Part shown: piece after piece, positions 1 through 22,148 of the stretch
Numbering within the stretch: position 1 is the stretch's first letter
How the letters are laid out: the number at the start of each line of letters is the position of its first letter
Assembly: GCF_003417465.1 (NCBI RefSeq)
Contig: NZ_QVMV01000053.1
Location: 1-55,566, forward strand
Source: Wenzhouxiangella sp. 15190
GTDB taxonomy: Bacteria > Pseudomonadota > Gammaproteobacteria > Xanthomonadales > Wenzhouxiangellaceae
Length of the DNA stretch: 55,566 bases
Direction: 5' to 3'
Notes under the pieces: model-generated
Database searches by the model: none
The model's input: the letters and a program-made list of their open reading frames with translations, nothing else
What the model was told of the DNA's origin: nothing
Position numbers and translations under genes: made by a program

Positions 1-952
1 CACCGTCGAGAAGCAGACCCTGCCTGACGGCAGCCTCCAGGCGTTCGACTTCACCGGCGATGTCGCCGGCTCGCTTACCGACGGTAACAGCATCACGGTC
101 CTGGTGGATCCGGGCACCTACACCTCGACCGAGACCCTGCCCGCCGACTGGGACCTGACTTCGATCGTTTGCGACGATGCGAATAGCACCGGCGATATCG
201 GCACGGCGACCGCAACCTTCAACGTCGAGCCCGACGAAGCAGTACGCTGCGTTTTCACCAACACCGAGCGCGGCACCATCATCGTCGAGAAGCAGACCAA
301 CCCGGAGGGCAGCCTGCAAGGCTTTGGCTTCACCGGCGATGCGGCAGGCACTTTGACTGACGACGAGCAGCTCGTCATCGGCAACCTGGCGCCGGGAGCC
401 TACAGCTCGACCGAATCGATTACGGAAGGCTGGGAACTAACCGACATCATCTGCAATGATGCCGACAGTACCGGCGATATCGCAAGGGCAACCGCGAACT
501 TTGTGCTCGATCCGGGCGAGACCGTAACCTGCGTGTTTATCAACACGGAGGCGACTGCGAATGAAGGCACGATCACCATCCTAAAACAGGCCAATCCTGC
601 CGATACGAGCCAGTTGTTTGCCTTCACCGGGGATCTGGGTGAATTCAGCTTGATGCATGGGGAGTTAATCGTGGAAACGCGAGCACCCGGCACTTATGGC
701 GTAAGCGAAACACTGCCGGCCGGCTGGCAGCTCGACAGCGCCAACTGCAGCGACGGGTCACCAGTCACCGCCATCGACCTTCAGGCCGGTGAGAATGTGA
801 CCTGTACATTCACGAATTCGCTTCTGGCGGTACACATGGTCAGCGTCCCGCTATTTTCCCGCGGTGGCCTTATAATCCTTTTATTGACGATATTGATAAT
901 TGCTGGCGTGTTTCAAAAGCATTCCGGGTTGAAAACAAGGCAGCGGGTTTAG
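1..952 (+). CDS. Secreted prealbumin-like repeat protein with IPTL-CTERM-like tail (5' partial)
   Basis: The reading frame is open from base 2 and ends in TAG at 950-952, so the N-terminus lies outside the window. About 316 residues are visible. They form three repeats of roughly 90 residues, each starting near a (V/I)EKQT or ITILKQ strand, containing an F(T)GD turn and a PGTY..(S/T)E motif, and ending in VTC.F.N(T/S). This is the look of SpaA/prealbumin-like beta-sandwich repeats in surface proteins. The end has a V-P-x-x-S-x-G-G motif, a hydrophobic segment and a short basic tail, like IPTL-CTERM sorting signals but with a different core. The last two repeats are clearly paralogous to the protein ending at 4753. 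The product is probably exported and anchored. Ligand and function are unknown. Confidence 0.8.
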   Translation, partial: TVEKQTLPDGSLQAFDFTGDVAGSLTDGNSITVLVDPGTYTSTETLPADWDLTSIVCDDANSTGDIGTATATFNVEPDEAVRCVFTNTERGTIIVEKQTNPEGSLQGFGFTGDAAGTLTDDEQLVIGNLAPGAYSSTESITEGWELTDIICNDADSTGDIARATANFVLDPGETVTCVFINTEATANEGTITILKQANPADTSQLFAFTGDLGEFSLMHGELIVETRAPGTYGVSETLPAGWQLDSANCSDGSPVTAIDLQAGENVTCTFTNSLLAVHMVSVPLFSRGGLIILLLTILIIAGVFQKHSGLKTRQRV

Positions 953-992
953 TGTCAGGGTTTCTGAATATCTCTGCGTTGCGTCCAGAGTA

Positions 993-1026
993 TAAAAAAA
1001 ACGGCACTTCATTTATGGAAGTGCCG
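993..1026 (-). terminator. Rho-independent terminator of the SYLF lipoprotein gene
   Basis: A perfect 9-bp stem pairs 1002-1010 with 1018-1026 around a 7-nt loop. On the minus strand the stem is followed by a U-run (the A-run at 994-1001 on the plus strand). It lies 30 bases past the stop of the minus-strand gene ending at 1056 and about 50 bases past the convergent plus-strand gene. Confidence 0.85.
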
Positions 1027-1055
1027 TGGTCGAATCTACGACCCTAAAGCAGAGC

Positions 1056-1637
1056 TTATCTGGCCGCGAATGCTTGGTAGGAGAACTTCTGTCCGCCAAC
1101 TCCGGCTTCGAACATCAAGCCAGCTTCATCCATGGTGAATACGGCGACGCCATCTTCGAATTTAGCGTTTGTGCCTTCGCCGGATTGCAATGCGACGGCC
1201 GTGGCCTGGGAACTGAATTCATAGTTCCCCTGGAGGAATTTATCCAGCGCATTAGTCGTTTCAAATACCAGAATCTCGGTATATGCTTGGCCGCCGAGTT
1301 GCAGGCCGAGGGTGGCCTGGCTCAAGTCGGTATAACCGACCTGCGTGCCATTCTTGTAAACGATACCTCGCCCGTAGGCACCACCGACAACTGCACCACC
1401 CTTGCCGCCGCTCGGGAATACGGCGTAGCCGGGTGCGCTTTGGATGATGGCATCAAACCCATTGTTGCTGGCTCTCGCCAGGCTCAGCGCGGTATTTGCA
1501 TCCTGCTTGAGATCGCTTCGATCATATGCGCTCTTGGCTGCCGTCGAGCATGCGGCCAAGAATGTGATGCCCAGGGCTGTAATCAACAAGCCAGAGATAA
1601 GCCTCGATCCGGGGAATTGTTTGCTTATAGTAAACAT
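1056..1637 (-). CDS. SYLF/YSC84-domain lipoprotein
   Basis: This encodes a 193-residue predicted lipoprotein. The start at 1637 gives a signal peptide with hydrophobic core LLITALGITFLA followed by the lipobox L-A-A-C-S. AGGA sits about 7 bases upstream. An ORF extension to 1928 adds about 97 residues with no secretion logic and is rejected. The mature part carries the SYLF (YSC84-like) pattern: alanine-rich helix, PGYAVFPSGGKGGAVVGGAYGRG, GYTDLSQATLGLQLGGQAYTEI and a C-terminal FEAGVGGQKFSYQ. Eukaryotic SYLF domains bind phosphoinositides. Bacterial members are periplasmic or outer-membrane proteins of unclear role. It is monocistronic with its own terminator. Confidence 0.85.
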   Translation of the reverse strand: MFTISKQFPGSRLISGLLITALGITFLAACSTAAKSAYDRSDLKQDANTALSLARASNNGFDAIIQSAPGYAVFPSGGKGGAVVGGAYGRGIVYKNGTQVGYTDLSQATLGLQLGGQAYTEILVFETTNALDKFLQGNYEFSSQATAVALQSGEGTNAKFEDGVAVFTMDEAGLMFEAGVGGQKFSYQAFAAR

Positions 1638-2146
1638 ATTTGACGTCCTGTTACGGTGCTCGAGTTGAGCACGCGATAAAAAGGATAGCAAGGTGTCTGG
1701 TCCGCGTCTGTACGTTGACGCAGCTGTTGCATGTTTAAATACGAATCCGCAATGGAAGCTTTGTGGGTTGCCGGCTGTGCCTGGTTTGTGGTCGGTGAAT
1801 GGATGCATAGACCAGTCAAAGAGGCGTGCCCGGTTTGCAAGCAACCTCCGAAGCCATGCGCTGGCTCGGAAAGGGCAGTAGTGTCGAATGCGTTGTTTCT
1901 TTTTACGTTGGCGCTGGATCTGGGTCATGTCCTGGCCAAAGCCAGTATTGCTGGAAGGCGCCCCGGTAAGGTTACTGGACCAAGAACCCCTATTCCGCCG
2001 CGTCGGTTTGCCCGTCCGATCAGGGGGTCATCTCTTGCCGGAGACAGCGGTGCACATGGGTGCGAGAGCGCACAGATGAATTCCGGTCACAGCGGTATGC
2101 TTTAAAGGAGTCTCTGGCTTATCACAAAATCCAAGGAAGACTGATT
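1638..2146. other. Intergenic stretch without a recognisable gene
   Basis: About 510 bases separate the divergent SYLF lipoprotein and small membrane protein genes. Open frames here on both strands have no recognisable composition, signal or motif. The stretch presumably holds the promoters of both neighbours, but I could not define a convincing -35/-10 pair. Confidence 0.5.
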
Positions 2147-2296
2147 ATGTTATTTACAATTGCTGTTGTTCTCGCTGTACTTTGGGTGCTCGGCTTCGTC
2201 TCTGGCACCACCATGGGTGGTTTGATTCACCTCCTAATAGTACTTGCCGTCATCATGGTACTGTTCCAGCTAATTAGCGGACGCCGTGTCGGATAG
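2147..2296 (+). CDS. Small lmo0937-family membrane protein
   Basis: This 49-residue protein starts at the ATG at 2147, with an AGGAAG Shine-Dalgarno about 7 bases upstream. An in-frame upstream extension to 2060 is not needed. The sequence has two hydrophobic segments around a short G-T-T-M-G-G turn and ends in S-G-R-R-V-G. This matches the very small two-helix membrane proteins annotated as lmo0937 family (DUF5670-like). They are common near stress genes and are often found as short monocistronic units. The biochemical role is unknown. A strong hairpin follows at 2313-2344. Confidence 0.75.
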   Translation: MLFTIAVVLAVLWVLGFVSGTTMGGLIHLLIVLAVIMVLFQLISGRRVG

Positions 2297-2312
2297 GGTT
2301 AGGTTGTTGATC

Positions 2313-2344
2313 GGGAGCCTCTGAATGAACCTTCAGGGGCTCCC
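2313..2344. terminator. Strong hairpin between convergent genes, possible bidirectional terminator
   Basis: Thirteen bases at 2313-2325 pair with 2332-2344 with one mismatch or wobble around a 6-nt loop. No long T-run follows on either strand, so intrinsic termination is not certain. The position, 16 bases after the small membrane protein and at the end of the minus-strand ORF, fits a terminator for both. Confidence 0.5.
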
Positions 2345-2773
2345 TGGTGACCTTGCCGTCAAATATGCCGGCCTCCTTTGTCGCTCTAGCGTATTTGATC
2401 GTACCTGCATGTGTGCTTGCGTGTTCCAACCATGATGTTCATGTTCCAGTCGCAATCTATATCCATCCGGCCGGTCGGTAGGTTCATTCGTGTGGTGCAA
2501 TGAATGGGCATCATTCAACGCCTGGCTGAGTAGAAGCACGTTTTGCAGAAGCTGTGTGTTTTCCTGCAGGAGCTTCTCGATTTGCGTGAGAGCTTCCTGA
2601 AGTTGAATTTGCGGGTCCGCACTCTGGAGACAGCTAAACTGCTCCGGACGCGCACCTAATCGCCACCGCGCTCGCATAAACTGCGCGACCTGGTTTTCCA
2701 CGATTCCCTTAATAATCCCGGGCTGAATCCGCATGGTCGAGTGTTCGTGGCCATTCATTGTGTATGTAGTCAT
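2333..2773 (-). CDS. Hypothetical protein with a short coiled coil
   Basis: This is a 146-residue ORF of unknown family. It is preceded by an AGGGA-like Shine-Dalgarno about 8 bases upstream of the ATG at 2773, which favours a real gene. Residues about 52-90 are Gln/Leu-rich and look like an amphipathic helix or coiled coil (LQEALTQIEKLLQENTQLL). The C-terminal part is His- and Arg-rich and of low complexity. There is no signal peptide or membrane segment. The last codons run into the hairpin at 2313-2344. The true product might end differently in relatives. I cannot assign a function. Confidence 0.45.
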   Translation of the reverse strand: MTTYTMNGHEHSTMRIQPGIIKGIVENQVAQFMRARWRLGARPEQFSCLQSADPQIQLQEALTQIEKLLQENTQLLQNVLLLSQALNDAHSLHHTNEPTDRPDGYRLRLEHEHHGWNTQAHMQVRSNTLERQRRPAYLTARSPGSP

Positions 2774-3292
2774 ATCGAAATCCCTATTGGCAGTGAACCG
2801 AAGAAGCGGAATAATCCGGTCCTGTTCCCGCTATGTCTTACGAAACATAAAATCCGCGGCAATGACTTTTCGATTGCCCGGAAAAATGCTCGGTTTTAGC
2901 GTGCCGGCCTGGCGCCATGGCGACGCATCCCCATGCCGATGCCGCAGGACAGGTATCGTTCCGCGGTCGACGCGAGGTTTGCCGACTGTTCTTAAAATGA
3001 CTCTCGCCGGATTGCGTGTCTGTTCGGGAGCGAACAAGGCTTGCTGAGATCGCTGGAGAAGTTATGGACGGCTCCGGACGTGCTTCGGAGAAGTCATATC
3101 TGAAACTCCGCCGAACCTGGCGAAGGTTGCGGGCAGGGATATCAGCGCTGTGCGGATACGACGGGATGGAAAGAGTGGTTCCATAAATGATGCTGTCGTT
3201 TCTGTGTGCGGTACCGCACAGAAATCCAGCGAGCCCCAAATTAGCCTTGAAATGTCATATATACATAGCAAATGGCTACTAGGGAGAATTAC
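2774..3292. other. Intergenic stretch upstream of the ice-binding-like gene
   Basis: About 520 bases with no supportable gene. Overlapping short ORFs on both strands lack ribosome binding sites and protein-like composition. The last 60 bases are AT-rich and probably contain the promoter of the next gene. I see no clear -35/-10 pair. Confidence 0.5.
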
Positions 3293-4753
3293 TTGAGAAT
3301 CATGAGTTTACGAGCCCCCAATACGCGGTGCCTCAGGCCAGTTTCTCCGGGCGTGGGCGTATTCCCGCCACGGATGGCGCGTATTTTTCAGGCCAGTGCG
3401 GGTGCGGCGTTGTTGTTGCTTTCGGTCCCGGCGTTTTCCCAGACCGCACCCGACCTCGGATCGACCAGCTCATTCGCGATCGTTTCCGAGACTTACAGCA
3501 ATACCACGGCCGGGACGGCAATCGACGGTGATGTCTGTTTCACCACCGGGCCCGCTGTTGATCCCACCGTTAACGGGACAGTTCAGACACCCTGCCCGGC
3601 GCAAACCGGGACTGACCAGAACGCCGCCCGATCTGACCTGGACTCGCAATCATGTACTTCGATCGGTGCCGCCGTAGCCCTGGACGAGGTGAGTATCGAC
3701 GGTGGCCCGCCGGGCGAGTTTCCACCCGGCTGCTACTCGAGCACGGGGGCCATGAGCATCACCACCGGCACGACGGTTACGCTGAGCGGCGACGGGGTCT
3801 ACATATTCCGGCCGGACGGCGCGCTTGACGCCGCAGCCGATTCCAGCGTCGTAACGGCCGACGGGGCCTGCACGGACAATGTTTTCTGGACGCCCACCGG
3901 TGGCACCACTATTGGCGCCAATTCCGCTTTTGTCGGCACCGTGTTTCGTGGCACGGCTGATGGTCTCAGTATTACGTTGGGGGACTCGGCATCGCTTGAA
4001 GGCAGGGCACTGGCGTTCGGTTCGACCGTCACGACGGCCAACAACGCAATTGCCGTTCCAAGTGCATGCGATCAACAGCAAACCGGCACCGGAACCATTA
4101 TCGTCGAAAAGCAGACCAACCCGCAGGGCAGTACCCAGGGCTTCAGCTTCACAGGCGACGCTCTCGGTGTCATCGCCGACGGCGAGCAGATTGTCGTCGA
4201 CAATCTGGCGGCGGGTAATTACAGCGCGACCGAGGCAGTCCCGGAAGACTGGGAGCTGACCGATATTGTCTGTAACGATACCGACAGTAGTGGCGATCTC
4301 GGAACCGCAACCGCAGACTTCGTGCTCGACGCCGGTGAGACCGTCACTTGTGCATTTGTCAACACGGAACTCACTGCGACCGACGGCACGATTACCATAC
4401 TCAAACAGGCCGACCCGTCCGATACGGGCGAGTCATTCGACTTCAGCGGGGATCTCGGCAGCTTCAGCCTGATGCACGGCGAATTCATCGTGGAAACGCG
4501 ACCACCTGGTACCTACGCCGTGAGTGAAACAGTACCGGCTGATTGGCAGCTCGACAGTGCCACCTGCGACAATGGCTCATCGCCCGATGCCATTGCCCTC
4601 GAGGCAGGCGAGAGCGTGACCTGCACATTCTCCAATTCACGCGGACCGCTCAGCATACCGATCTTTTCACAGGGCGGGATTGCGCTGATTGTCTTGATGA
4701 TGTTGATGATTGCTGTCTTCTCCATGCGGCATATCGATCTGAATCGAAGATAG
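3293..4753 (+). CDS. Ice-binding-like (DUF3494) protein with two prealbumin-like repeats and IPTL-CTERM-like tail
   Basis: I chose the TTG at 3293 because AGGGAG at 3281-3286 lies 6 bases upstream. In-frame ATGs at 3272 and 3302 are alternatives. A signal peptide ends near VPAFSQ-TAP. It is followed by about 210 residues matching the DUF3494 ice-binding fold: an N-terminal L-G-S-T-S-S-F-A-I-V-S, then D-G-V-Y-I-F-R, N-V-F-W, T-I-G-A-N-S-A-F-V-G-T and G-R-A-L-A. Two prealbumin-like repeats of about 90 residues follow, paralogous to those of the protein ending at 952. The tail has I-P-I-F-S-Q-G-G, a hydrophobic helix and ...DLNRR. DUF3494 proteins include ice-binding adhesins, but many mesophiles carry members of unknown role. 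Surface display is inferred from the signal peptide and tail. Confidence 0.88.
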   Translation: MRIMSLRAPNTRCLRPVSPGVGVFPPRMARIFQASAGAALLLLSVPAFSQTAPDLGSTSSFAIVSETYSNTTAGTAIDGDVCFTTGPAVDPTVNGTVQTPCPAQTGTDQNAARSDLDSQSCTSIGAAVALDEVSIDGGPPGEFPPGCYSSTGAMSITTGTTVTLSGDGVYIFRPDGALDAAADSSVVTADGACTDNVFWTPTGGTTIGANSAFVGTVFRGTADGLSITLGDSASLEGRALAFGSTVTTANNAIAVPSACDQQQTGTGTIIVEKQTNPQGSTQGFSFTGDALGVIADGEQIVVDNLAAGNYSATEAVPEDWELTDIVCNDTDSSGDLGTATADFVLDAGETVTCAFVNTELTATDGTITILKQADPSDTGESFDFSGDLGSFSLMHGEFIVETRPPGTYAVSETVPADWQLDSATCDNGSSPDAIALEAGESVTCTFSNSRGPLSIPIFSQGGIALIVLMMLMIAVFSMRHIDLNRR

Positions 4754-11975: not shown

Positions 11976-13262
11976 ATGGTTCAGCAGAATCCGACCGCAC
12001 CATCCGAAACCGGCGCCCGGGGAGGTGGGTCTGGAACGAGAGACAAGAACCCCGACAAGGGCTACATCGCGCTTCTTGGCTGGAGTCTCAACGCCATCGA
12101 TGCCATGGCGCGCTTCGACCGGCGCTACGTCGTGGTCGCCCCGGCGTGGGCGGCCGACTACGCCCGTGAACACGACATTCCGTTCATCCAGTGGGACTTC
12201 GAGCGACTCAACGAGCGCTCCCTGGAAATCGCCGAGACACTCAAGAAGGAAGGCGTGGACGTCTCGATCCCGCTATTCGAAGAGACCGTCGAATGGGCCG
12301 GCGCGATCAATTCGGTGCTGATGGACCAGCCGCGCCTGCACGGACAGTCCGTCCTGTTCCGCGACAAGGCGTTGATGAAGCGCCGTGCTCACCTCGGCGG
12401 TATCCGGGTCGGCGTGTTCGAGGAAGCGCATGACCGCGACGATGTCTACCGTTTCCTGCGCCGCGTCAACCAGACGCTGCTCAAGCTCGACGGCGACCCC
12501 AACGATCCGATTCACCTCAAGGCCTTCGATCAGGCAGGCTGCCTGGGACACCGGGTAATCCGAAGGCCCCAGGAAATCGATACAATCCCGGACACCGATT
12601 TTCCGCTGCTGATGGAATCCCATCTCGACGGCTGGGAATTTGCCGTCGAAGCCTGGATTCACGATGGCGAGATCAAGTTTCTCAACATTTCCGAGTACGT
12701 CACGCTCGGCTACTCGGTTTTCGTGCCGGCAACACCAGAACTCGAAAGCTGGCGTGAAGCGATCACGCGTGAGGTGGAGAAGCTGGTCAAGGCCTTCGAT
12801 ATCAAGTTCGGGCTGATTCACCCCGAGTACTTCGTCACCGCCGACGGCACCATGTACTTCGGTGAAGTCGCCTATCGACCGCCGGGTTTCAAGGCGTTCG
12901 AGTTGATCGAGCGCGCCTACGGCTTCAACGCCTACCAGGCAACGGCACTGGTGTTCGATCCCAAGTCGACGAAGGAAGAAGTCGACGCCTTCTTCCCCGA
13001 GCCGGTCAAGGGCGCCAAGGGCCATGCGGGTTGTTTCGGCGTTTTCCCGCGCCGGCGCGTGGTCAGCCAACTGGCTTTCCCGGAAGAGACGGCCGAACAT
13101 CCATACTTCGAGAGCCACGAGCTCTATCCCTTGCAGGAAGAGGTGGTGGCCGAACGCGAAGCCTTCGGCACACACTGGGGCCTGGTCTACTTCTTCGGTG
13201 ACGATCCGCACAAGATGCGCGATCTGCTCAAGCACCAGGAAGAGCTGGACTTCTATATCTGA
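11976..13262 (+). CDS. ATP-grasp family carboxylate-amine ligase-like protein
   Basis: The start is well supported by AAGGAGA 8 bases upstream of the ATG at 11976. The product has 428 residues. After a Gly/Ser-rich leader of about 25 residues there is a Rossmann-like N-domain (G-Y-I-A-L-L-G-W-S, R-Y-V-V-V-A-P). The ATP-grasp fold follows: DKALMKRRA, the L-L-K-L-D-G strand, a grasp strand P-L-L-M-E-S-H-L-D-G-W-E-F, and a metal-binding end M-Y-F-G-E-V-A-Y-R-P-P-G. ATP-grasp enzymes activate a carboxylate as acyl-phosphate and join it to an amine or thiol. The closest look is to biotin-carboxylase-like/CARNS-type ligases acting on amino acids or peptides; the substrate is unknown. It is the first gene of an apparent three-enzyme cassette. 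Confidence 0.85.
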   Translation: MVQQNPTAPSETGARGGGSGTRDKNPDKGYIALLGWSLNAIDAMARFDRRYVVVAPAWAADYAREHDIPFIQWDFERLNERSLEIAETLKKEGVDVSIPLFEETVEWAGAINSVLMDQPRLHGQSVLFRDKALMKRRAHLGGIRVGVFEEAHDRDDVYRFLRRVNQTLLKLDGDPNDPIHLKAFDQAGCLGHRVIRRPQEIDTIPDTDFPLLMESHLDGWEFAVEAWIHDGEIKFLNISEYVTLGYSVFVPATPELESWREAITREVEKLVKAFDIKFGLIHPEYFVTADGTMYFGEVAYRPPGFKAFELIERAYGFNAYQATALVFDPKSTKEEVDAFFPEPVKGAKGHAGCFGVFPRRRVVSQLAFPEETAEHPYFESHELYPLQEEVVAEREAFGTHWGLVYFFGDDPHKMRDLLKHQEELDFYI

Positions 13263-13394
13263 CAACGCCGGAAACGCTTCGCGTGCACATCGCGTGCACA
13301 GCGAGGCGATCCGCTATGATCGGGAAAGTCAGCCGCGGCTTCATCGACACCGAAGCCGCGTGCTCACCCGATTCGCTCGTCACCTTTTTTACGC

Positions 13395-15410
13395 ATGGAG
13401 TACCAGCGCTTGCAGGAGCCATCTCACAACGATGACCCGGACCTGAGCCGGTTGGGCGAGAATTTCGAGCATGCGCTTGAAAGCGTCGCCCGCGTTACCC
13501 CGATTGCCAAAGCCGGCCAACTTCCGCGTCTTTTCAACGCCACGCTGCGGCTGCTCAGGCGTCCGGGTGGTGCGGCCACGCTGTATGCCCATGCCGGCCG
13601 GCTGGACGAGGCGGGTGTTTTCGAGGGCAGCGACTGGAACCACCCCGAACGCCTGCAGCCGGAACTGTCGCGCGGTTCCCTGACGGGAGCAGCCGATGCG
13701 CTGTCTGTCGAAGCGCTCAGCCGTCTGCGCATGCTTGCCATCGCCGAAGGTGACTACCGGCATCCGCTGGTCAGTGCCGAGGCGGCGCGTCATTTTCTCC
13801 AGCGCAGCCTGGTGCTGAACCTCGACTTGTTGCTGGGCGATCATTCCGAGGCCGGTCGGTCGGGCGGCGGCCATCACGAGGCTGTTCAGAACCTGCTTTC
13901 ATTCGAGCTCGACCGCCTGGGCGGGACCAACCTCGTCGAGGCGCTGGTTACCGAAGCCGATCACATTCTCGAGCAGCGCCCGATCGATGTTTCCGGCGTA
14001 CGCCAGTTGCTCGAACACATCGAACGCCTGCTTCGGCGAACGGACTTGTCCGAAGAGACAGCCGCCCTCGAGCGCGGCCGGCTGCTGCTCGATGCGAGCC
14101 GGGGCCCCACGGAGTTGAGCAGTACCTCGCCGGAGGCCAGTGTGGCGCTTTTTCAGGAACTGCCCGGGGCGCAGCAGGACGGAGAGCTGGCCGCCCTCGG
14201 GCACTCGATGAACGAAACCGGTCTGGTTTGCCCCGCCCACGGCGCGATCCTCAGGTTTCTGGCCGAATCCGGCAGTGACGAGCAATTGGTGTTGGCGATG
14301 GGGCTCGACCCGGTCGGTGCCGACAGTCTGGATGCGTTCAATGCCCTGGTGCGGGCCCTGATCGTCGAGGGGGTCCATCCAGCGACGGCCCAGTGCATCG
14401 TTGCGCTGAGCAATCTGCTCGATCACGGTACGCTGTTTTTCCCGCCGGTCCCGCCGGCCTTGTGGCGCTTGACGCGACTCGATCCGCTGCCGGAGGTTGC
14501 GGCGCACCTGCGCAAGGAATTCGGGCATGAGGATCCACCTTCCGGCCGCAGCCTGCTTTTAGCCGGTGTCATCGGTGTGCTCGGCCTGCCATTGGGCGTG
14601 AGCCAGGGCAACAATCCCACCTGCCAGTCTGCACGCGCAATCAGTCTGTGGGCCCAGATCGATCCCGGCTTCCTGCTCGAGCTGGTGATGTGGGCCGCAC
14701 GCGACGACGAGATCGACCTGCACTTCGAGGGCGACCTGATCCGCTCGAGTGAGCTGAGTGAAGGGCTGATCGAGGACTTCCATACCGAGCTCGATACCGT
14801 TTCCCTCGTGCTCGTGCCGCATCTCGACAAGATCTACTGGGAGATGGGGCGGCGCATCGTCGGCCGCGGTGAAGACGGGCACCGCTGGATCAATCCCGAA
14901 TTCCACGGCTGGTGGGTGCACCGCGGTTTCGCCACTACCTTCGATTACGCCAGCGGCGCGGTCAACGATTTCTCCGGTTTCATCCGGCAGTTTCACGCGG
15001 CGTATCATCCCCGCTACAACGGCGGCGCCGACCTGATCTATCCGCAGCCGGCGGGCATTGTTGCCACCGACCCATTCGGTAACTTCATCGGGTTGCACGC
15101 CATCGCCATTCAGCGCGTCGCACTCGGCCCCGAGGGCGTGATGCGTGTCTACTTCTACAACCCCAACAACGAGGGTCGGCAGGACTGGGGGCAGGGTATC
15201 GTGACGTCGACCCGGGGGCATGGTGAGGTACCGGGGGAATCCTCGCTGCCATTCGAGCAATTCTGTGCCCGTCTCTATGTGTTCCATTTCAACGAACGCG
15301 AGCTCGGTGATCCCGATACAGTGCCCGAAGACACGGTCGATGCCATCGCAGGCCAGGTGCGAACGAGCTGGGCCGCCGAGAAGGCTTGGCAGGAAGTGGT
15401 TTCGAGCTGA
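13395..15410 (+). CDS. Uncharacterised papain-like cysteine hydrolase (clan CA-like signature)
   Basis: I do not recognise the family of this 671-residue protein. The first 380 residues are helical and leucine-rich with no known domain. The C-terminal third contains Q404-G-N-N-P-T-C410, with the same Gln-to-Cys spacing of six as papain's oxyanion glutamine and nucleophile. It is followed by G-L-H568-A-I-A-I and Y-F-Y-N589-P-N-N with a W-G-Q-G further on, mirroring the His and Asn-Ser-Trp-Gly blocks of papain-like enzymes. I infer a cysteine peptidase, amidase or transglutaminase-like activity. There is no signal peptide, so it is cytosolic. The Shine-Dalgarno is weak. The stop overlaps the next start (TGATG), coupling it to the HDAC-family gene. 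Confidence 0.8.
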   Translation: MEYQRLQEPSHNDDPDLSRLGENFEHALESVARVTPIAKAGQLPRLFNATLRLLRRPGGAATLYAHAGRLDEAGVFEGSDWNHPERLQPELSRGSLTGAADALSVEALSRLRMLAIAEGDYRHPLVSAEAARHFLQRSLVLNLDLLLGDHSEAGRSGGGHHEAVQNLLSFELDRLGGTNLVEALVTEADHILEQRPIDVSGVRQLLEHIERLLRRTDLSEETAALERGRLLLDASRGPTELSSTSPEASVALFQELPGAQQDGELAALGHSMNETGLVCPAHGAILRFLAESGSDEQLVLAMGLDPVGADSLDAFNALVRALIVEGVHPATAQCIVALSNLLDHGTLFFPPVPPALWRLTRLDPLPEVAAHLRKEFGHEDPPSGRSLLLAGVIGVLGLPLGVSQGNNPTCQSARAISLWAQIDPGFLLELVMWAARDDEIDLHFEGDLIRSSELSEGLIEDFHTELDTVSLVLVPHLDKIYWEMGRRIVGRGEDGHRWINPEFHGWWVHRGFATTFDYASGAVNDFSGFIRQFHAAYHPRYNGGADLIYPQPAGIVATDPFGNFIGLHAIAIQRVALGPEGVMRVYFYNPNNEGRQDWGQGIVTSTRGHGEVPGESSLPFEQFCARLYVFHFNERELGDPDTVPEDTVDAIAGQVRTSWAAEKAWQEVVSS

Positions 15411-16525
15411 TGACTGCTCCGCTGGCAGTGGTCTACCACGAAGAAATGCTCCAGCACCAGCCGCCGGGGTTGGAACCGGGGATGCGCGACTACCACGCGC
15501 GCCAGCTGCGTGCCCGGCTCGGCGAACTGGTCGCCAGCGGGCTCTGGCGCCATCCCGAACGGCCCGAACGGCTGTCATCGCTGGTCGAGCGCGCGCGTGA
15601 ACTCGACGACGGCAGACTGCTGTGGCTGGCGCCTGAGCGAGCCGATGAGCCGACCGTCCGTCGGGCTCACACCGGCGGTCATATGCAGCGTCTCGACAAG
15701 CTCAGGGGGCGCAAGCGCATGCTCGCGATCGATTCCACGGCGGTGTCGCCGGGCAGTGTCGATGCGGCGTTTCGTGCCGCGGGTGCGGTCTGTACGGGGG
15801 TCGATGCCGTGTTCGATGGCCGGGCGGCGAGTGCCTTTGCCCTGGTGCGCCCCCCAGGCCACCATGCCAGTGCGGCGCATTATCGCGGTTTCTGCCTGAT
15901 CAACAACGTCGCCGTCGCGGCGGAGCATGCGAAGGCCGTGCACGGCGTCGAGCGCGTGCTGATCGTCGACTGGGACATTCACCACGGCAACGGTACGGCC
16001 TCGATCTTCGCAGCCGACCCGGATGTGCTTTTCTTCGATCTCCACCGTGCCGCACCCTACTATCCCGGCAGTGGCGCGCTGGAGGATGTCGGGCAGGGAC
16101 GCGCGCGCGGCACGAATTTGAACGTACCGCTACCGGCGGAAACCAGCGACCTGGCGGTCCTCGAGGCCATCGATCGCATTCTCGTCCCGGCGGCACGCCG
16201 GTTCCGGCCCGGTTTGATCCTGGTCTCGGCGGGTTTCGACGGTACGAGCGAACACCTTGCCTGCCGGTTCAGCAGGGAGCTATATGCGCATCTGACCGAT
16301 CGTATGCAGAGATTGGCCGATGAGCTGTGTCACGGTCGGCTGGTCCTGGCGCTCGAGGGGGGCTATCACCTCGATCCCATGCGCGAGGCGCTGGCACACT
16401 GCATGCGTACGCTCAGTGAACCCGGCAGCGAACTGCCACCGATACGGCGCAGCCGGATCGGCCTGCCGGCCGTGCGCGAAGCGGCGGATTTCCTGGCCGG
16501 GCAGTCTTACCTGCTTCAAGACTGA
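15410..16525 (+). CDS. Histone deacetylase/acetylpolyamine amidohydrolase family protein
   Basis: The ATG at 15410 overlaps the upstream stop by one base, giving 371 residues. All core motifs of the zinc-dependent arginase-deacetylase fold are visible: R-P-P-G-H151-H152-A (catalytic His pair), GFCLINNVAVAA, V-D-W-D189-I-H191-H-G-N-G-T (zinc ligands D189 and H191), S-A-G-F-D277-G (third zinc ligand) and L-E-G-G-Y319-H (transition-state Tyr). The active site therefore looks intact. In bacteria such enzymes remove acetyl or acyl groups from polyamines, acetoin-pathway proteins or small amides. Pairing with an ATP-grasp ligase and a cysteine hydrolase suggests action on an amide-linked metabolite or peptide. 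The substrate is unknown. Confidence 0.92.
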   Translation: MTAPLAVVYHEEMLQHQPPGLEPGMRDYHARQLRARLGELVASGLWRHPERPERLSSLVERARELDDGRLLWLAPERADEPTVRRAHTGGHMQRLDKLRGRKRMLAIDSTAVSPGSVDAAFRAAGAVCTGVDAVFDGRAASAFALVRPPGHHASAAHYRGFCLINNVAVAAEHAKAVHGVERVLIVDWDIHHGNGTASIFAADPDVLFFDLHRAAPYYPGSGALEDVGQGRARGTNLNVPLPAETSDLAVLEAIDRILVPAARRFRPGLILVSAGFDGTSEHLACRFSRELYAHLTDRMQRLADELCHGRLVLALEGGYHLDPMREALAHCMRTLSEPGSELPPIRRSRIGLPAVREAADFLAGQSYLLQD

Positions 16526-18744: not shown

Positions 18745-19419
18745 TCAGGCTGTCTCGCCTTCGCCGCCGGAACCGTTGTTGCCGTTTTCGGCTTCGTCGG
18801 ACCCGTCTTCGTCTTCCGCCGAGTCCCCGGAATCGGCCGCCCGCTCGTCATCCGTCGACGGTTCCCCGGTTTCCGATTCTTCCTCGGTGGCTTCCGGTTC
18901 CTGCTCGGGCTCAGGCTCGGGTGGCTCGACGAGATTGCGGTACTCACCCTCGGTCAGGCTGGAGGCGGTCTGCAGGAAGGCCGCAATCTGCCAGAGTTGC
19001 TCGTCGGAGACGCGCTCCTCGCCGATGCGCGGCATGGCCGACATCTTGATGCCGTTGCGCGCTACCCAGTACATCTCGGCCGGATCGGGTTGGCCACGGG
19101 TCAGGGCCGGCGGGCGTGGATCGAAGCTGTCGCTCGGTGACCGTCCCGGTCGGCCGTGACAGCCTGAACAACTCTCGTCATAGGCAACCGCACCGGCTTC
19201 CGCCATGTCCGAATCGTCGAGGTCCGGGACGTCGATGTCGCCCGCGCGGGTCTCGATGGCGCGCTCGCGCAAGGTTCCCAGGTACCAGGCCGTCCATGGC
19301 GTGTGGCCGGTGCCGACGGATATGTCGTAATGTCCGCTGTAGGCATAGGCGATCGCCGCTCCCACGACGATTACCACCAGGATCAGCACGGTACGGATAA
19401 ATCGCCCGATTGTCTTCAT
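18745..19419 (-). CDS. Membrane-anchored c-type cytochrome with acidic C-terminal tail
   Basis: This is a 224-residue protein. The N-terminal helix (TVLILVVIVVGAAIAYAYSG) is not followed by a clear cleavage site, so it likely anchors the protein facing the periplasm. The haem c site is C84-S-G-C87-H88. A K-M-S-A-M-P segment around 125-130 supplies the probable axial Met, and DEQLWQIAAFLQ is the usual last helix of a class I cytochrome. The last 60 residues are almost entirely Glu, Asp, Ser and Gly, an unusual disordered acidic tail. It probably carries electrons between membrane complexes. It is convergent with the gene ending at 18735 (9-base gap) and divergent from the P1 peptidase gene. 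Confidence 0.9.
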   Translation of the reverse strand: MKTIGRFIRTVLILVVIVVGAAIAYAYSGHYDISVGTGHTPWTAWYLGTLRERAIETRAGDIDVPDLDDSDMAEAGAVAYDESCSGCHGRPGRSPSDSFDPRPPALTRGQPDPAEMYWVARNGIKMSAMPRIGEERVSDEQLWQIAAFLQTASSLTEGEYRNLVEPPEPEPEQEPEATEEESETGEPSTDDERAADSGDSAEDEDGSDEAENGNNGSGGEGETA

Positions 19420-19607
19420 CGCTCGTCTCCCTTAATCAAAAGCGCAAGAACCCTCATCATAGCAAGCCTGCCGCCGGGTGCCTCGGCGGCGGGATCGGGA
19501 GTCGTCAACCAGGCTTCGCCATTCGACTGGGAAAGCGAAGCCGTGTCGCCCAGAATGGGGATGCTCATGCACAACCATCGTCATTCAATCACCAGGGAGA
19601 TGTCGTC

Positions 19608-20831
19608 GTGAGAAATTTTGCTGATGGATTGATTGGCCCCGGTCTTTGCCTGTTGTTGTCGATGTCCGTCTCCGGATTGGTGGCGGGCGAGGGTCCATCC
19701 GGGCGTACCCGCGACCTGGGCTTGTCGCCCGGCGTCCTCTCGGCCGGTAAATGGAATGCCATCACCGACGTGGGGGGTGTGCAGGTGGGGCATTTCACCC
19801 TGATCGAGGGTAAGGGCATTCGTACCGGCGTGACGGTGATCCTGCCCCACGACGGCAATCCCTATCGCCAGCGGGTCCCGGCAGCGGTGCACGTGGGCAA
19901 CGGCTTCGGCAAGGCGGTGGGCTTCACCCAGATCAGCGAGCTCGGTGAATTGGAGACACCGATTGCGCTGACCAATACGCTCGCCGTCTACCAGGCTGCC
20001 CACGGCGTGGCCGACTGGGTGCTGGACTTGCCGGGCAACGAGGATGTCCGATCGGTCAATGCCGTCGCCGGCGAGACCAACGACGGCTGGCTCAACGATA
20101 TCCGTGCCCGGGTGATCGAGCCCGACCACGTGCATCGGGCCATCGAGGCGGCCGACAGCGGACCGGTGCGCGAGGGCAATGTCGGTGCCGGTACGGGCAC
20201 GCGGGCGCTCGGCTTCAAGGGCGGTATCGGTACGGCCTCGCGGGTGTTGCCGGCCGGTCGCGGCGGCTACACGGTGGGTGTGCTGGTGCAGTCGAACTTT
20301 GGCGGAATCCTGACCATCGACGGCGTGCCGGTCGGCGAACGGCTCGACACGCACTACATGGCCGATGAGGTGCCCTACGAACGGCCCGACGGCCCCGATG
20401 GTGCCTCCAGCGACGAACCGGCCGGCTATGATCCCGATGCCGACGGGTCGATCATGATCGTCGTGGCCACCGATGCGCCGTTGGGTTCGCGCAACCTGGA
20501 GCGCCTGGCCCGCCGCGCCATGCTGGGTGTGGCACGGACCGGCGGATTCTCCTCCAACGGCAGCGGCGACTATGTGATCGCCTTCTCGACGCATCCCGAC
20601 GTGCGCATCGAAACCCGGGAAAGTGATGTTCGCGGAACGCGACGGCTGGCTAACCCGGCCATGTCGCCGTTGTTCCTGGCCGTGGTCGAGGCCGTCGAGG
20701 AAGCGATTCTCAATTCGCTTTTCGCCGCCGAGACCCTGAGCGGGCACAAGGGCCGCAGCGTGCCGGCCCTGCCCACCGACCGGGTTGTCCCGCTGCTGGA
20801 ACGTGGCGGGGTGATCGACAAGCCGGATTGA
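19608..20831 (+). CDS. P1/DmpA-family (S58) aminopeptidase, exported
   Basis: The GTG at 19608 follows AGGGAGA by 7 bases, so the longer frame from 19410 is rejected. The 407-residue product has a signal peptide ending near SGLVAG. The DmpA fold is recognised by WNAITDVGGVQVGH, T-G-V-T-V-I-L-P, N-V-G-A-G-T-G-T, and the D-G-S281-I-M-I-V-V-A-T-D-A-P block, whose serine is the autoprocessing nucleophile in this family. S-G-D-Y-V-I-A-F-S-T follows. DmpA-type enzymes are N-terminal nucleophile hydrolases that release N-terminal residues, including D-amino acids or beta-amino acids, from short peptides. The next gene is a dipeptidase, suggesting periplasmic peptide breakdown. Confidence 0.92.
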   Translation: MRNFADGLIGPGLCLLLSMSVSGLVAGEGPSGRTRDLGLSPGVLSAGKWNAITDVGGVQVGHFTLIEGKGIRTGVTVILPHDGNPYRQRVPAAVHVGNGFGKAVGFTQISELGELETPIALTNTLAVYQAAHGVADWVLDLPGNEDVRSVNAVAGETNDGWLNDIRARVIEPDHVHRAIEAADSGPVREGNVGAGTGTRALGFKGGIGTASRVLPAGRGGYTVGVLVQSNFGGILTIDGVPVGERLDTHYMADEVPYERPDGPDGASSDEPAGYDPDADGSIMIVVATDAPLGSRNLERLARRAMLGVARTGGFSSNGSGDYVIAFSTHPDVRIETRESDVRGTRRLANPAMSPLFLAVVEAVEEAILNSLFAAETLSGHKGRSVPALPTDRVVPLLERGGVIDKPD

Positions 20832-20891: not shown

Positions 20892-22148
20892 ATGTCACGA
20901 GCACTGATTGCCGTATTGCTGTTGACTGCAGCCTTCAATACGGTCCGCGCCGAATCCCCGGATGCCGAATCACCCCCACTCGAGCAAGCGCGGCAGCTGC
21001 TCGATCGCCATGCCCTGATCGATGGGCACAACGACGTGCCGTGGCAGGTGCGCGAGCGCTTCGAGCGCCGGGTTGGCGAACTGGACTTCGCCGGCGACAC
21101 CGCGACGCTGGAGTCGCCGATGCACACTGACCTGTCGCGTCTGCGCGACGGGCGCGTGGGAGCACAGTTCTGGTCCGTGTATGTCGATCCGGAATTCTCC
21201 GGCGACGAGGCGGTGCGTATCCAGCTCGAGCAGCTCGATGTCGCCCATCGCCTGATCGATCGCCACGATGCGCTCGAGTTCGCAACGACCGCCGATGACA
21301 TCGAGCGTGCTTTCGAGCAGGGACGCATCGCCTCGCTGCTCGGCCTCGAAGGCGGCCATACGCTGAACAATTCACTGGCCGTGCTGCGCATGTATCACCG
21401 GCTCGGTGCCCGCTATCTGACGCTGACGCACTGGCAGAGCCACGACTGGGCCGATGCGTCCACCGATGCCGCCCGTCACGAGGGGTTGAGCGAATTCGGC
21501 AAGGAAGTCGTGCGCGAGATGAATCGGCTGGGCATGCTGGTTGACCTGTCGCACGTCAGCGAGGCGGTCATGCACGATTCACTCGACGTGAGCGAGGCGC
21601 CGGTCATCTTTTCGCATTCATCGGCCCGCGGCGTGACCGATCATCCGCGCAATGTGCCCGACGATGCACTGGAGCGCCTGCCCGACAACGGCGGTATCGT
21701 CATGGTCACTTTCGTTCCCGGTTTCATCAACGAGACCGTGCGCCAGTGGGACGCGCGCAAGGAAGGCGAACAGGCGCGACTGGAACGGCTGCATCCGGGC
21801 GATGCCGAAGCGGTCGAGGCCGGCATGGAGGCCTGGGAGGCGAACAACCCGGCGCCCCGCGCGACGATCGCCGACGTGGCCGACCACATTGACTACATCC
21901 GCGATCGCATCGGGGTCGAGCACATCGGAATCGGCGGCGACTTCGACGGCATTTCATCCACGCCGGAGGGGCTTGAGGACACCGCCACCTATCCGGCGTT
22001 GTTCGCCGAGTTGATCCGCCGCGGCTACAGCGACGAAGAGCTGGTCGCGATTGCCGGCGGCAACATGTTGCGGGTGTTGCGCGAGGCCGAAGCGGTTTCC
22101 GGTCGCCTGCGCTCTGAACGCGGTCCGTCTCAAGTCCAATACGAGTGA
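20892..22148 (+). CDS. Membrane dipeptidase, peptidase family M19, exported
   Basis: This 418-residue protein has a signal peptide (ALIAVLLLTAAFNTVRA). The M19 (renal dipeptidase-like) metal site is complete in motif form: D-G-H-N-D-V-P-W (His and Asp), G-L-E-G-G-H (bridging Glu), V-D-L-S-H-V-S, I-F-S-H-S-S-A-R and G-I-G-G-D-F-D-G. The enzyme uses two zinc ions to cut dipeptides, including ones with a D-residue at the C-terminal side. It lies 60 bases after the P1 peptidase gene on the same strand. The two probably act in sequence on periplasmic peptides, perhaps from peptidoglycan turnover or scavenging. Confidence 0.93.
   Translation: MSRALIAVLLLTAAFNTVRAESPDAESPPLEQARQLLDRHALIDGHNDVPWQVRERFERRVGELDFAGDTATLESPMHTDLSRLRDGRVGAQFWSVYVDPEFSGDEAVRIQLEQLDVAHRLIDRHDALEFATTADDIERAFEQGRIASLLGLEGGHTLNNSLAVLRMYHRLGARYLTLTHWQSHDWADASTDAARHEGLSEFGKEVVREMNRLGMLVDLSHVSEAVMHDSLDVSEAPVIFSHSSARGVTDHPRNVPDDALERLPDNGGIVMVTFVPGFINETVRQWDARKEGEQARLERLHPGDAEAVEAGMEAWEANNPAPRATIADVADHIDYIRDRIGVEHIGIGGDFDGISSTPEGLEDTATYPALFAELIRRGYSDEELVAIAGGNMLRVLREAEAVSGRLRSERGPSQVQYE

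Follow-up and report, generated by a model that had tools for sequence, protein, structure and literature searches.

The described systems closest to the locus studied here are the L-amino acid ligases RizA, BL00235 and BacD/YwfE, the papain-like enzymes of clan CA (bleomycin hydrolase, C39-related BtrH_N and phytochelatin synthase), the bacterial HDAC-like amidohydrolases (HDAH) together with HDAC6, and glutathionylspermidine synthetase/amidase, in which an ATP-grasp ligase and a papain-fold amidase work together. The side-chain assembly of butirosin has to be added to these, with BtrJ as its ATP-grasp enzyme and BtrG for deprotection. Its papain-like acyltransferase is BtrH, as described in an excerpt of PMC10318531. 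The locus itself is a three-gene cassette on contig NZ_QVMV01000053.1 of Wenzhouxiangella sp. 15190 (genome G000), of which a stretch of 55,566 nucleotides, hereafter called the window, was analysed. It encodes a predicted ATP-grasp carboxylate-amine ligase (gene 1, protein P0001), a papain-like protein (gene 2, P0002) and an HDAC-family zinc deacylase (gene 3, P0003). We read the three genes as one cytosolic amide-handling pathway, consisting of an obligate ligase/papain-like core and a dependent deacylase, and give this reading a probability of about 0.5. That the three act jointly is well supported; the chemistry proposed for the three steps, with substrate and direction included, is put forward as a hypothesis.

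The association of the first two genes was followed in 120 distinct loci carrying a relative of gene 2 (138 before identical ones were dropped), a set that is biased to the best matches. An ATP-grasp gene was situated within 1.5 kb of the papain-like gene in 101 of these loci, and in 90 of the 101 it was found upstream on the same strand, with other arrangements in the rest. At the genome level, the ATP-grasp family was detected at 677 bits or more in all 35 papain-like-positive genomes. Among 229 genomes of the class it reached at least 820 bits in six, all of them papain-like-positive, and two further genomes gave only weak matches, at 81 and 102 bits. In 61 relatives, the ligase was present in 15/15 papain-like-positive genomes, and the 46 papain-like-negative ones contained a ligase fragment in G021 (65% complete) and three weak matches that did not exceed about 32 bits. 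Barring the fragment in G021, neither core gene was found without the other, and for this reason both probably take part in making the product, in contrast to a scheme in which one enzyme forms it and the other destroys it.

The initial annotation had described one enzyme that makes amide bonds and two that break them; the observed pattern fits two obligate core enzymes and a dependent deacylase better. In its fuller form, that alternative states that the ATP-grasp enzyme forms a small amide, which is hydrolysed again by the papain-like enzyme, and that the HDAC treats an acylated form of the same amine, comparable to glutathionylspermidine synthetase/amidase combined with acetylpolyamine deacetylase. 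Hydrolase-type active-site residues in two of the three enzymes agree with it, and a ligase combined with a papain-fold amidase is already known, with the papain-like CHAP proteins including glutathionylspermidine synthetase and a trypanothione-related amidase according to the excerpt of PMC10318531. We nevertheless consider it rather unlikely: a hydrolase that serves recycling ought to be missing from some genomes, yet both core genes are present in 35/35, polyamine deacetylases are not the nearest relatives of the HDAC, and no match to a glutathionylspermidine-type ATP-grasp or CHAP family was obtained in Pfam. The trio also differs from glutathionylspermidine synthetase/amidase in belonging to other ATP-grasp and papain-like families, in consisting of separate polypeptides and in showing no polyamine evidence. 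A polyamine cycle was rejected as the leading model and is retained as a rival.

Gene 3 follows the core pair in a one-sided manner. In a sample of 369 gammaproteobacterial genomes, identical in sample size and genome handles for the papain-like and the HDAC scans, the papain-like gene was found in 13 and the HDAC subtype (E ≤ 1e-100) in 12, all 12 being among the 13, with G956 as the exception. None of the 356 papain-like-negative genomes of this class sample carried the subtype. A Fisher test gave 1.2e-21 by genome and, by genus, 5e-16 (9/10 vs 0/262), values for genomes that are not independent and with phylogeny uncorrected. Within the genus of the window, the subtype was detected in 9 of 14 papain-like-positive and in 0 of 16 papain-like-negative genomes. 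In many genomes the HDAC subtype is unlinked to the pair yet co-occurs with it. Where it is linked, it adjoins the papain-like gene in Wenzhouxiangella, G975, G1052, G249 and L073, and it lies beside the ligase in G1136. Besides the order ligase-papain-HDAC, G1052 has papain-HDAC-ligase, G1136 has papain-ligase-HDAC and G249 shows a mixed-strand form. When adjacency is mapped on a tree of 61 papain-like proteins, five changes are required, four of them forced by well-supported branches. The linkage of the HDAC thus arose repeatedly, in several lineages and in different orders. Co-occurrence and recurrent linkage bear out the idea that the three genes behave as a unit. Because the pair is obligate and the HDAC optional, yet never alone in the samples, synthesis by two enzymes with dependent deacylation is preferred over the making and breaking of one amide.

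For the preferred pathway, the following course of reaction can be proposed. The fold and the metal-site residues of P0001 suggest that it would activate a carboxylate as an acyl-phosphate and, in the manner of L-amino acid ligases, join this with an amine, the nature of the substrate being a prediction. Its obligate papain-like partner, with Cys410, His568 and Asn589 together with Gln404, would form a thioester with the ligase product or donor, and the acyl group may then be transferred or trimmed; here the residues and the model are observed, and the reaction is a prediction. Finally, the HDAC-type zinc enzyme, judged from its active-site residues, may strip an N-acyl group, either from the product or from an intermediate. 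This last step would be optional, as some lineages lack the HDAC subtype. In the tested samples no genome carried the subtype in the absence of the core pair.

The papain-like family is widespread and rare at the same time. A scan of GTDB species genomes matched at least 595 stretches, of which at least 582 encode a relative of gene 2; two search patterns were used, and a single gene could therefore be counted more than once. From that scan the 80 top-ranking loci were kept, and they include Wenzhouxiangella, Natronospira, Nitrococcus, Halomonas/Vreelandella/Billgrantia, Marinobacter, Salinisphaera and Alcanivorax, as well as Nocardia, Mycolicibacillus, Saccharopolyspora, a member of the Rhodospirillaceae and a Sumerlaeota genome. 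In even samples the gene was present in 11/398 genomes of the phylum, in 13/369 Gammaproteobacteria and in 3/346 genomes of the phylum of Nocardia, sample centre included. The patchy presence in the latter two samples, and the 70-78% identity of the ligase between phyla, suggest horizontal transfer, from which one could argue that the genes were transferred together and are retained independently, with no shared pathway. Such an explanation is highly improbable, given that unlinked HDAC genes still co-occur with the pair in many genomes, that linkage arose on several occasions with differing gene orders and that all three genes are under purifying selection. Paralogues were seen in a few genomes, i.e. 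a tail-to-tail second papain-like copy in one metagenome-assembled genome of Nitrococcus (L033) and an additional fragment in another such genome (L048); G129, G195 and G230, all of one genus, carry three copies each.

A virus- or plasmid-borne unit was considered and rejected: no phage relative was found, IMG/VR gave seven stretches with none confirmed, and the plasmid evidence is a single record. Among 72,556 plasmids that one record carries gene 2 and is also the sole P0003 match under E 1e-60 and the sole P0001 match above 60% identity; ten other plasmid records hold remote P0001 matches. An anti-phage defence system was likewise discarded, since PADLOC returned no family for any of the three proteins.

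The arrangement of the genes in the window corresponds to the initial annotation, which had described three neighbouring genes on the same strand with the last two overlapping by one base. The stop codon TGA of gene 2 (15408-15410) and the start codon ATG of gene 3 (15410-15412) have an A in common (TGATG). The open reading frame of gene 3 is listed from an upstream TTG at 15386, and the ATG at 15410 was adopted here as its start. Genes 1 and 2 are separated by 132 bases, and an AGGAG-like site was spotted by eye 5' of gene 1. The frames of all three genes are intact and conserved, with ratios of nonsynonymous to synonymous substitution rates (dN/dS) of 0.03, 0.077 and 0.20 for genes 1, 2 and 3 (closest pair among six sequences), indicating purifying selection. 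No strongly hydrophobic segment was found in the three proteins (highest 19-residue mean 1.78), and all three are therefore taken as cytosolic. A search for promoters and terminators gave no signal greater than in shuffled sequences, and Rfam and tRNA scans found nothing.

For P0001, the match to the Pfam family PF13535 (E 1.9e-5, 24.7 bits) falls slightly below the curated cut-off of 27, and that to NCBIfam PRK07206 reached 30.7 bits against a cut-off of 302. The predicted model has a moderate predicted local distance difference test (pLDDT) score of 73.8. Its top PDB match by Foldseek is the L-amino acid ligase RizA (E 3.6e-17), with 321 matches at E ≤ 0.001, and among the 50 structural matches listed dipeptide ligases are nearest to it. 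A profile of the gene 1 family matches RizA, BL00235 and a phosphoribosylglycinamide synthetase. Residues E284, E297 and R301, which we take to be the metal-binding acids and the following arginine, align with RizA and are invariant in the family alignments A4 and A6 (18 and 28 rows). By its predicted fold P0001 is an ATP-grasp enzyme (ATP-grasp_4 / L-amino acid ligase-like), with amino-acid ligase activity as a prediction; as the PF13535 score is below the cut-off and the sequence is divergent, it is filed by fold and not by Pfam. Gene 1 thus shares with RizA, BL00235 and BacD/YwfE the fold, the metal-site residues and its best PDB matches. It differs from them in being 12-16% identical in structural alignments, in forming a highly conserved family of its own, in having a papain-like partner and in ending with a fixed C-terminal DFY[VI] tail.

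This tail is DFYI in P0001 (window 13248-13259), and 95 of 97 distinct ligase sequences end, at their extreme C-terminus, in the pattern D-[FY]-Y-[VI]. Such a fixed tail may be unusual for an ATP-grasp enzyme, and it may dock to, or be recognised by, the gene 2 protein. Across the loci L013-L116, ligases of different phyla share about 70-78% identity, compared with about 45% for the papain-like partner, which is a strong difference in constraint.

Searches with P0002 against Pfam, NCBIfam, PADLOC and PHROGs were all negative. When 32 diverse relatives were scanned against Pfam, no family matched more than two members (best E 0.03), and BtrH_N was absent among the families matched up to E = 1. 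Residues Q404, C410, H568 and N589 are invariant across these 32 relatives, and the motif QGxxP[TS]C was present in 120/120 distinct relatives. The AlphaFold2 model (pLDDT 87.2, built on a 46-row alignment) is all-helical over residues ~1-400, followed by a papain-like C-terminal part in which C410 directly precedes helix 411-422, H568 lies within strand 564-577 and N589 stands just past strand 583-588. The loop beside C410 is of low confidence (residues 402-409, pLDDT below 50), and the arrangement was read from the secondary structure of the model. In papain-like enzymes the cysteine is always at the N-terminus of the core helix, according to the excerpt of PMC10318531. P0002 resembles clan CA in the order Gln-Cys-His-Asn and in having Cys at a helix N-terminus, His in a strand and Asn after a strand, features as given in the same excerpt. 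It differs from clan CA in the absence of a Pfam family and of significant matches by profile or fold, and in its large all-helical N-terminal part. P0002 is here called papain-like because of its motif and model and not on the basis of demonstrated homology. The papain-like nature that the initial annotation had assigned to the middle protein is retained on these grounds, with non-significant fold and profile matches; given such matches and the weak loop at 402-409, motif and model are what the name refers to.

Apart from the papain-like peptidases, the listed fold matches of P0002 are mostly alpha-solenoids by name (AP2, importins, beta-catenin), none of them significant. As these are protein-binding folds, a modification of proteins or peptides may be envisaged, in which the helical N-terminal part would bind a protein and a residue or tag would be attached by the ATP-grasp enzyme and cleaved by the papain-like one, with the HDAC acting on acylated lysine. 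The HDAC6-like sequence of P0003 would suit this, and so would the conserved ligase tail, kept as if docked or recognised. With all fold matches of P0002 non-significant, no neighbouring gene of any kind conserved across lineages (genes below 90 codons were not called) and the ligase model nearest to dipeptide ligases among the 50 matches listed, we regard this scheme as unlikely.

P0003 is a clear member of the Pfam family Hist_deacetyl (PF00850; E 2.4e-83, 280.3 bits, cut-off 27.9). Residues H151, H152, D189, H191, D277 and Y319, presumably the zinc and catalytic positions, are invariant in a 10-sequence HDAC alignment. P0003 resembles HDAH and HDAC6 in the PF00850 domain and in all zinc and catalytic residues. 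Among its PDB relatives HDAC6 and HDAH score ahead of the polyamine deacetylase HDAC10. A glutamate gatekeeper is typical of polyamine deacetylases of the HDAC10/APAH type. The presumed gatekeeper position is Leu in the alignment of P0003 and HDAC6. The acetylpolyamine idea of the initial annotation finds no positive evidence in these comparisons, which place the HDAC somewhat closer in sequence to HDAC6/HDAH than to HDAC10.

The difference of P0003 from HDAH and HDAC6 is that it belongs to its own subtype, defined by a score gap, which in the tested samples was not found apart from the papain-like gene. The pair-linked HDACs define this subtype, whose copies score at least 446 bits, compared with at most 295 for other HDACs. 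In the 35 papain-like-positive genomes, 22 have a copy of at least 458 bits, and the other listed HDACs reach at most 271, further subtype copies aside. In a quick tree without bootstrap, linked and unlinked HDAC copies intermingle in one group; the score cut used for this tree mis-sorted L177 into the subtype group and L073 out of it. In G010 (locus L014, ~13160-13234) an HDAC remnant with a large internal deletion lies beside the pair, of which both the ligase and the papain-like gene are intact. The HDAC damage in G010 is a recent loss.

A number of results weigh against the reading of the three genes as one pathway. The HDAC adjoins the papain-like gene in 12/120 distinct loci, and strict adjacency of the whole trio is thus exceptional, so that the expectation of three neighbours in relatives holds for genes 1 and 2, fails for the linkage of gene 3 and is recovered for gene 3 as co-occurrence. 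The HDAC subtype is missing from 13/35 papain-like-positive genomes, including all five actinobacterial ones. In 19/120 papain-like loci there is no nearby ligase, some of these having short flanks and some being extra paralogues, and extra papain-like paralogues are carried by some genomes. In the large scans a small number of top candidates was scored in each genome (at most three papain-like and five HDAC), and the profile of the HDAC subtype was built from papain-linked copies. The papain-like-negative genome G056 has an HDAC with 213 bits to P0003, which on the subtype profile reaches 294.5 bits, below the subtype (at least 446) and above the other rescored HDACs (at most 265). On the side of P0002, Foldseek with the model gave no match at E ≤ 0.001 (best E 0.15). 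Papain-like peptidases make up 13 of the 50 listed fold matches (E 0.26-1.1), yet these represent five different proteins, i.e. bleomycin hydrolase, a Parabacteroides protease (several entries), staphopain, calpain and fibroinase. A comparison of the gene 2 family with papain profiles was negative, as were its controls, and sequence profiles of the family found no PDB relative. G056 was also tried as a counter-example to the dependence of the HDAC on the pair; after being fetched and rescored, its HDAC falls outside the subtype, though it is nearest to it.

Compared with the side-chain assembly of butirosin, the trio shows the same logic of activation, transfer and deprotection, and it is built from different families. 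P0002 has no BtrH_N match. In the loci compared, no neighbour shared across lineages was seen, and hence neither a carrier protein nor a biosynthetic cluster. A search of the literature, covering open-licence papers, gave no description of the trio among the matches listed. The parts belong to known superfamilies, but neither the papain-like family nor the combination of the three appears to have been described. With slightly less than even confidence, we propose a widely transferred, unrecognised pathway in which an obligate ATP-grasp/papain-like pair and a dedicated deacylase of the HDAC subtype would yield an amide metabolite or a protein modification; the papain-like partner would then be a new enzyme family, dependent on the ligase and possibly recognising the invariant DFY[VI] tail.

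The neighbourhood of the cassette was also examined, and the features are collected in Table 1. Clustering of neighbours in the 80 loci (genes below 90 codons were not called, and the caller missed the papain-like gene in two loci) gave no fourth conserved gene and mostly lineage-specific ones, such as Mqo and a thiamine pyrophosphate (TPP) enzyme in Marinobacter and others in Halomonas, Nocardia and Mycolicibacillus. Cross-lineage neighbours that were checked, 0.1-6 kb off, were set aside as general families (ABC-transporter ATPase, short-chain dehydrogenase, thiolase and BCCT transporter). Of 18 stretches fetched around the HDAC, 17 hold it; no neighbour occurs in more than three of them, sharing is mostly within a genus (L195/L196, L199/L202), and no fourth gene is therefore implied. 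A gene of the BCCT (betaine/carnitine/choline) transporter family is situated 0.8-5.4 kb from the papain-like gene in L047, L062, L084, L096 and L104, loci of Marinobacter, Alcanivorax and Halomonas, one of the five having been scanned against Pfam.

Table 1. Features of the three-gene cassette and its downstream region in the window.
Feature	Coordinates	Strand	Basis
ATP-grasp carboxylate-amine ligase P0001 (gene 1), predicted, 428 aa	11976..13262	+	ORF list (open reading frames), translation
Papain-like protein P0002 (gene 2), 671 aa	13395..15410	+	ORF list, translation
Papain-like catalytic part of P0002, predicted	14550..15380	+	invariant residues, AlphaFold2 secondary structure
Q404, putative catalytic set of P0002	14604-14606	+	
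C410, putative catalytic set of P0002	14622-14624	+	
H568, putative catalytic set of P0002	15096-15098	+	
N589, putative catalytic set of P0002	15159-15161	+	
HDAC-family zinc deacylase P0003 (gene 3), 371 aa, distinct subtype	15410..16525	+	PF00850
S58 (DmpA/BapA-type) peptidase, possible Wenzhouxiangella-only accessory	19410..20831	+	PF03576
M19 dipeptidase, possible Wenzhouxiangella accessory	20892..22148	+	PF01244

In the window and in L013, L018, L019 and L020 the S58 gene lies downstream of the trio and on its strand, and the M19 gene likewise, except in L013. In L018, L019 and L020 the S58 gene comes directly after the HDAC with M19 next; in the window it is three genes away. No S58 match was found near the pair in the examined loci of other lineages, and for M19 there were only remote matches (24-25% identical), ~6 kb from the pair, in the Marinobacter loci L047 and L084. 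The S58 and M19 proteins of the window start with stretches that resemble signal peptides by eye, and they may act outside the cytoplasm. Upstream RND pump genes were rejected as partners, as they are also present in L013, L015 and L016 and absent from L017-L020. At 104-4753 the window carries two genes that encode SpaA-type prealbumin-like domains; in the second, an Ice_binding-like domain is present as well.

With these results, three separately annotated anonymous genes become one testable pathway in the culturable genera Halomonas, Marinobacter and Salinisphaera, and a papain-like family with many members that appears undescribed is added. To our knowledge, the cellular targets of bacterial HDAC homologues are largely open. 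A defined bacterial HDAC subtype is now placed among partner genes, and this context could lead to its natural substrate.

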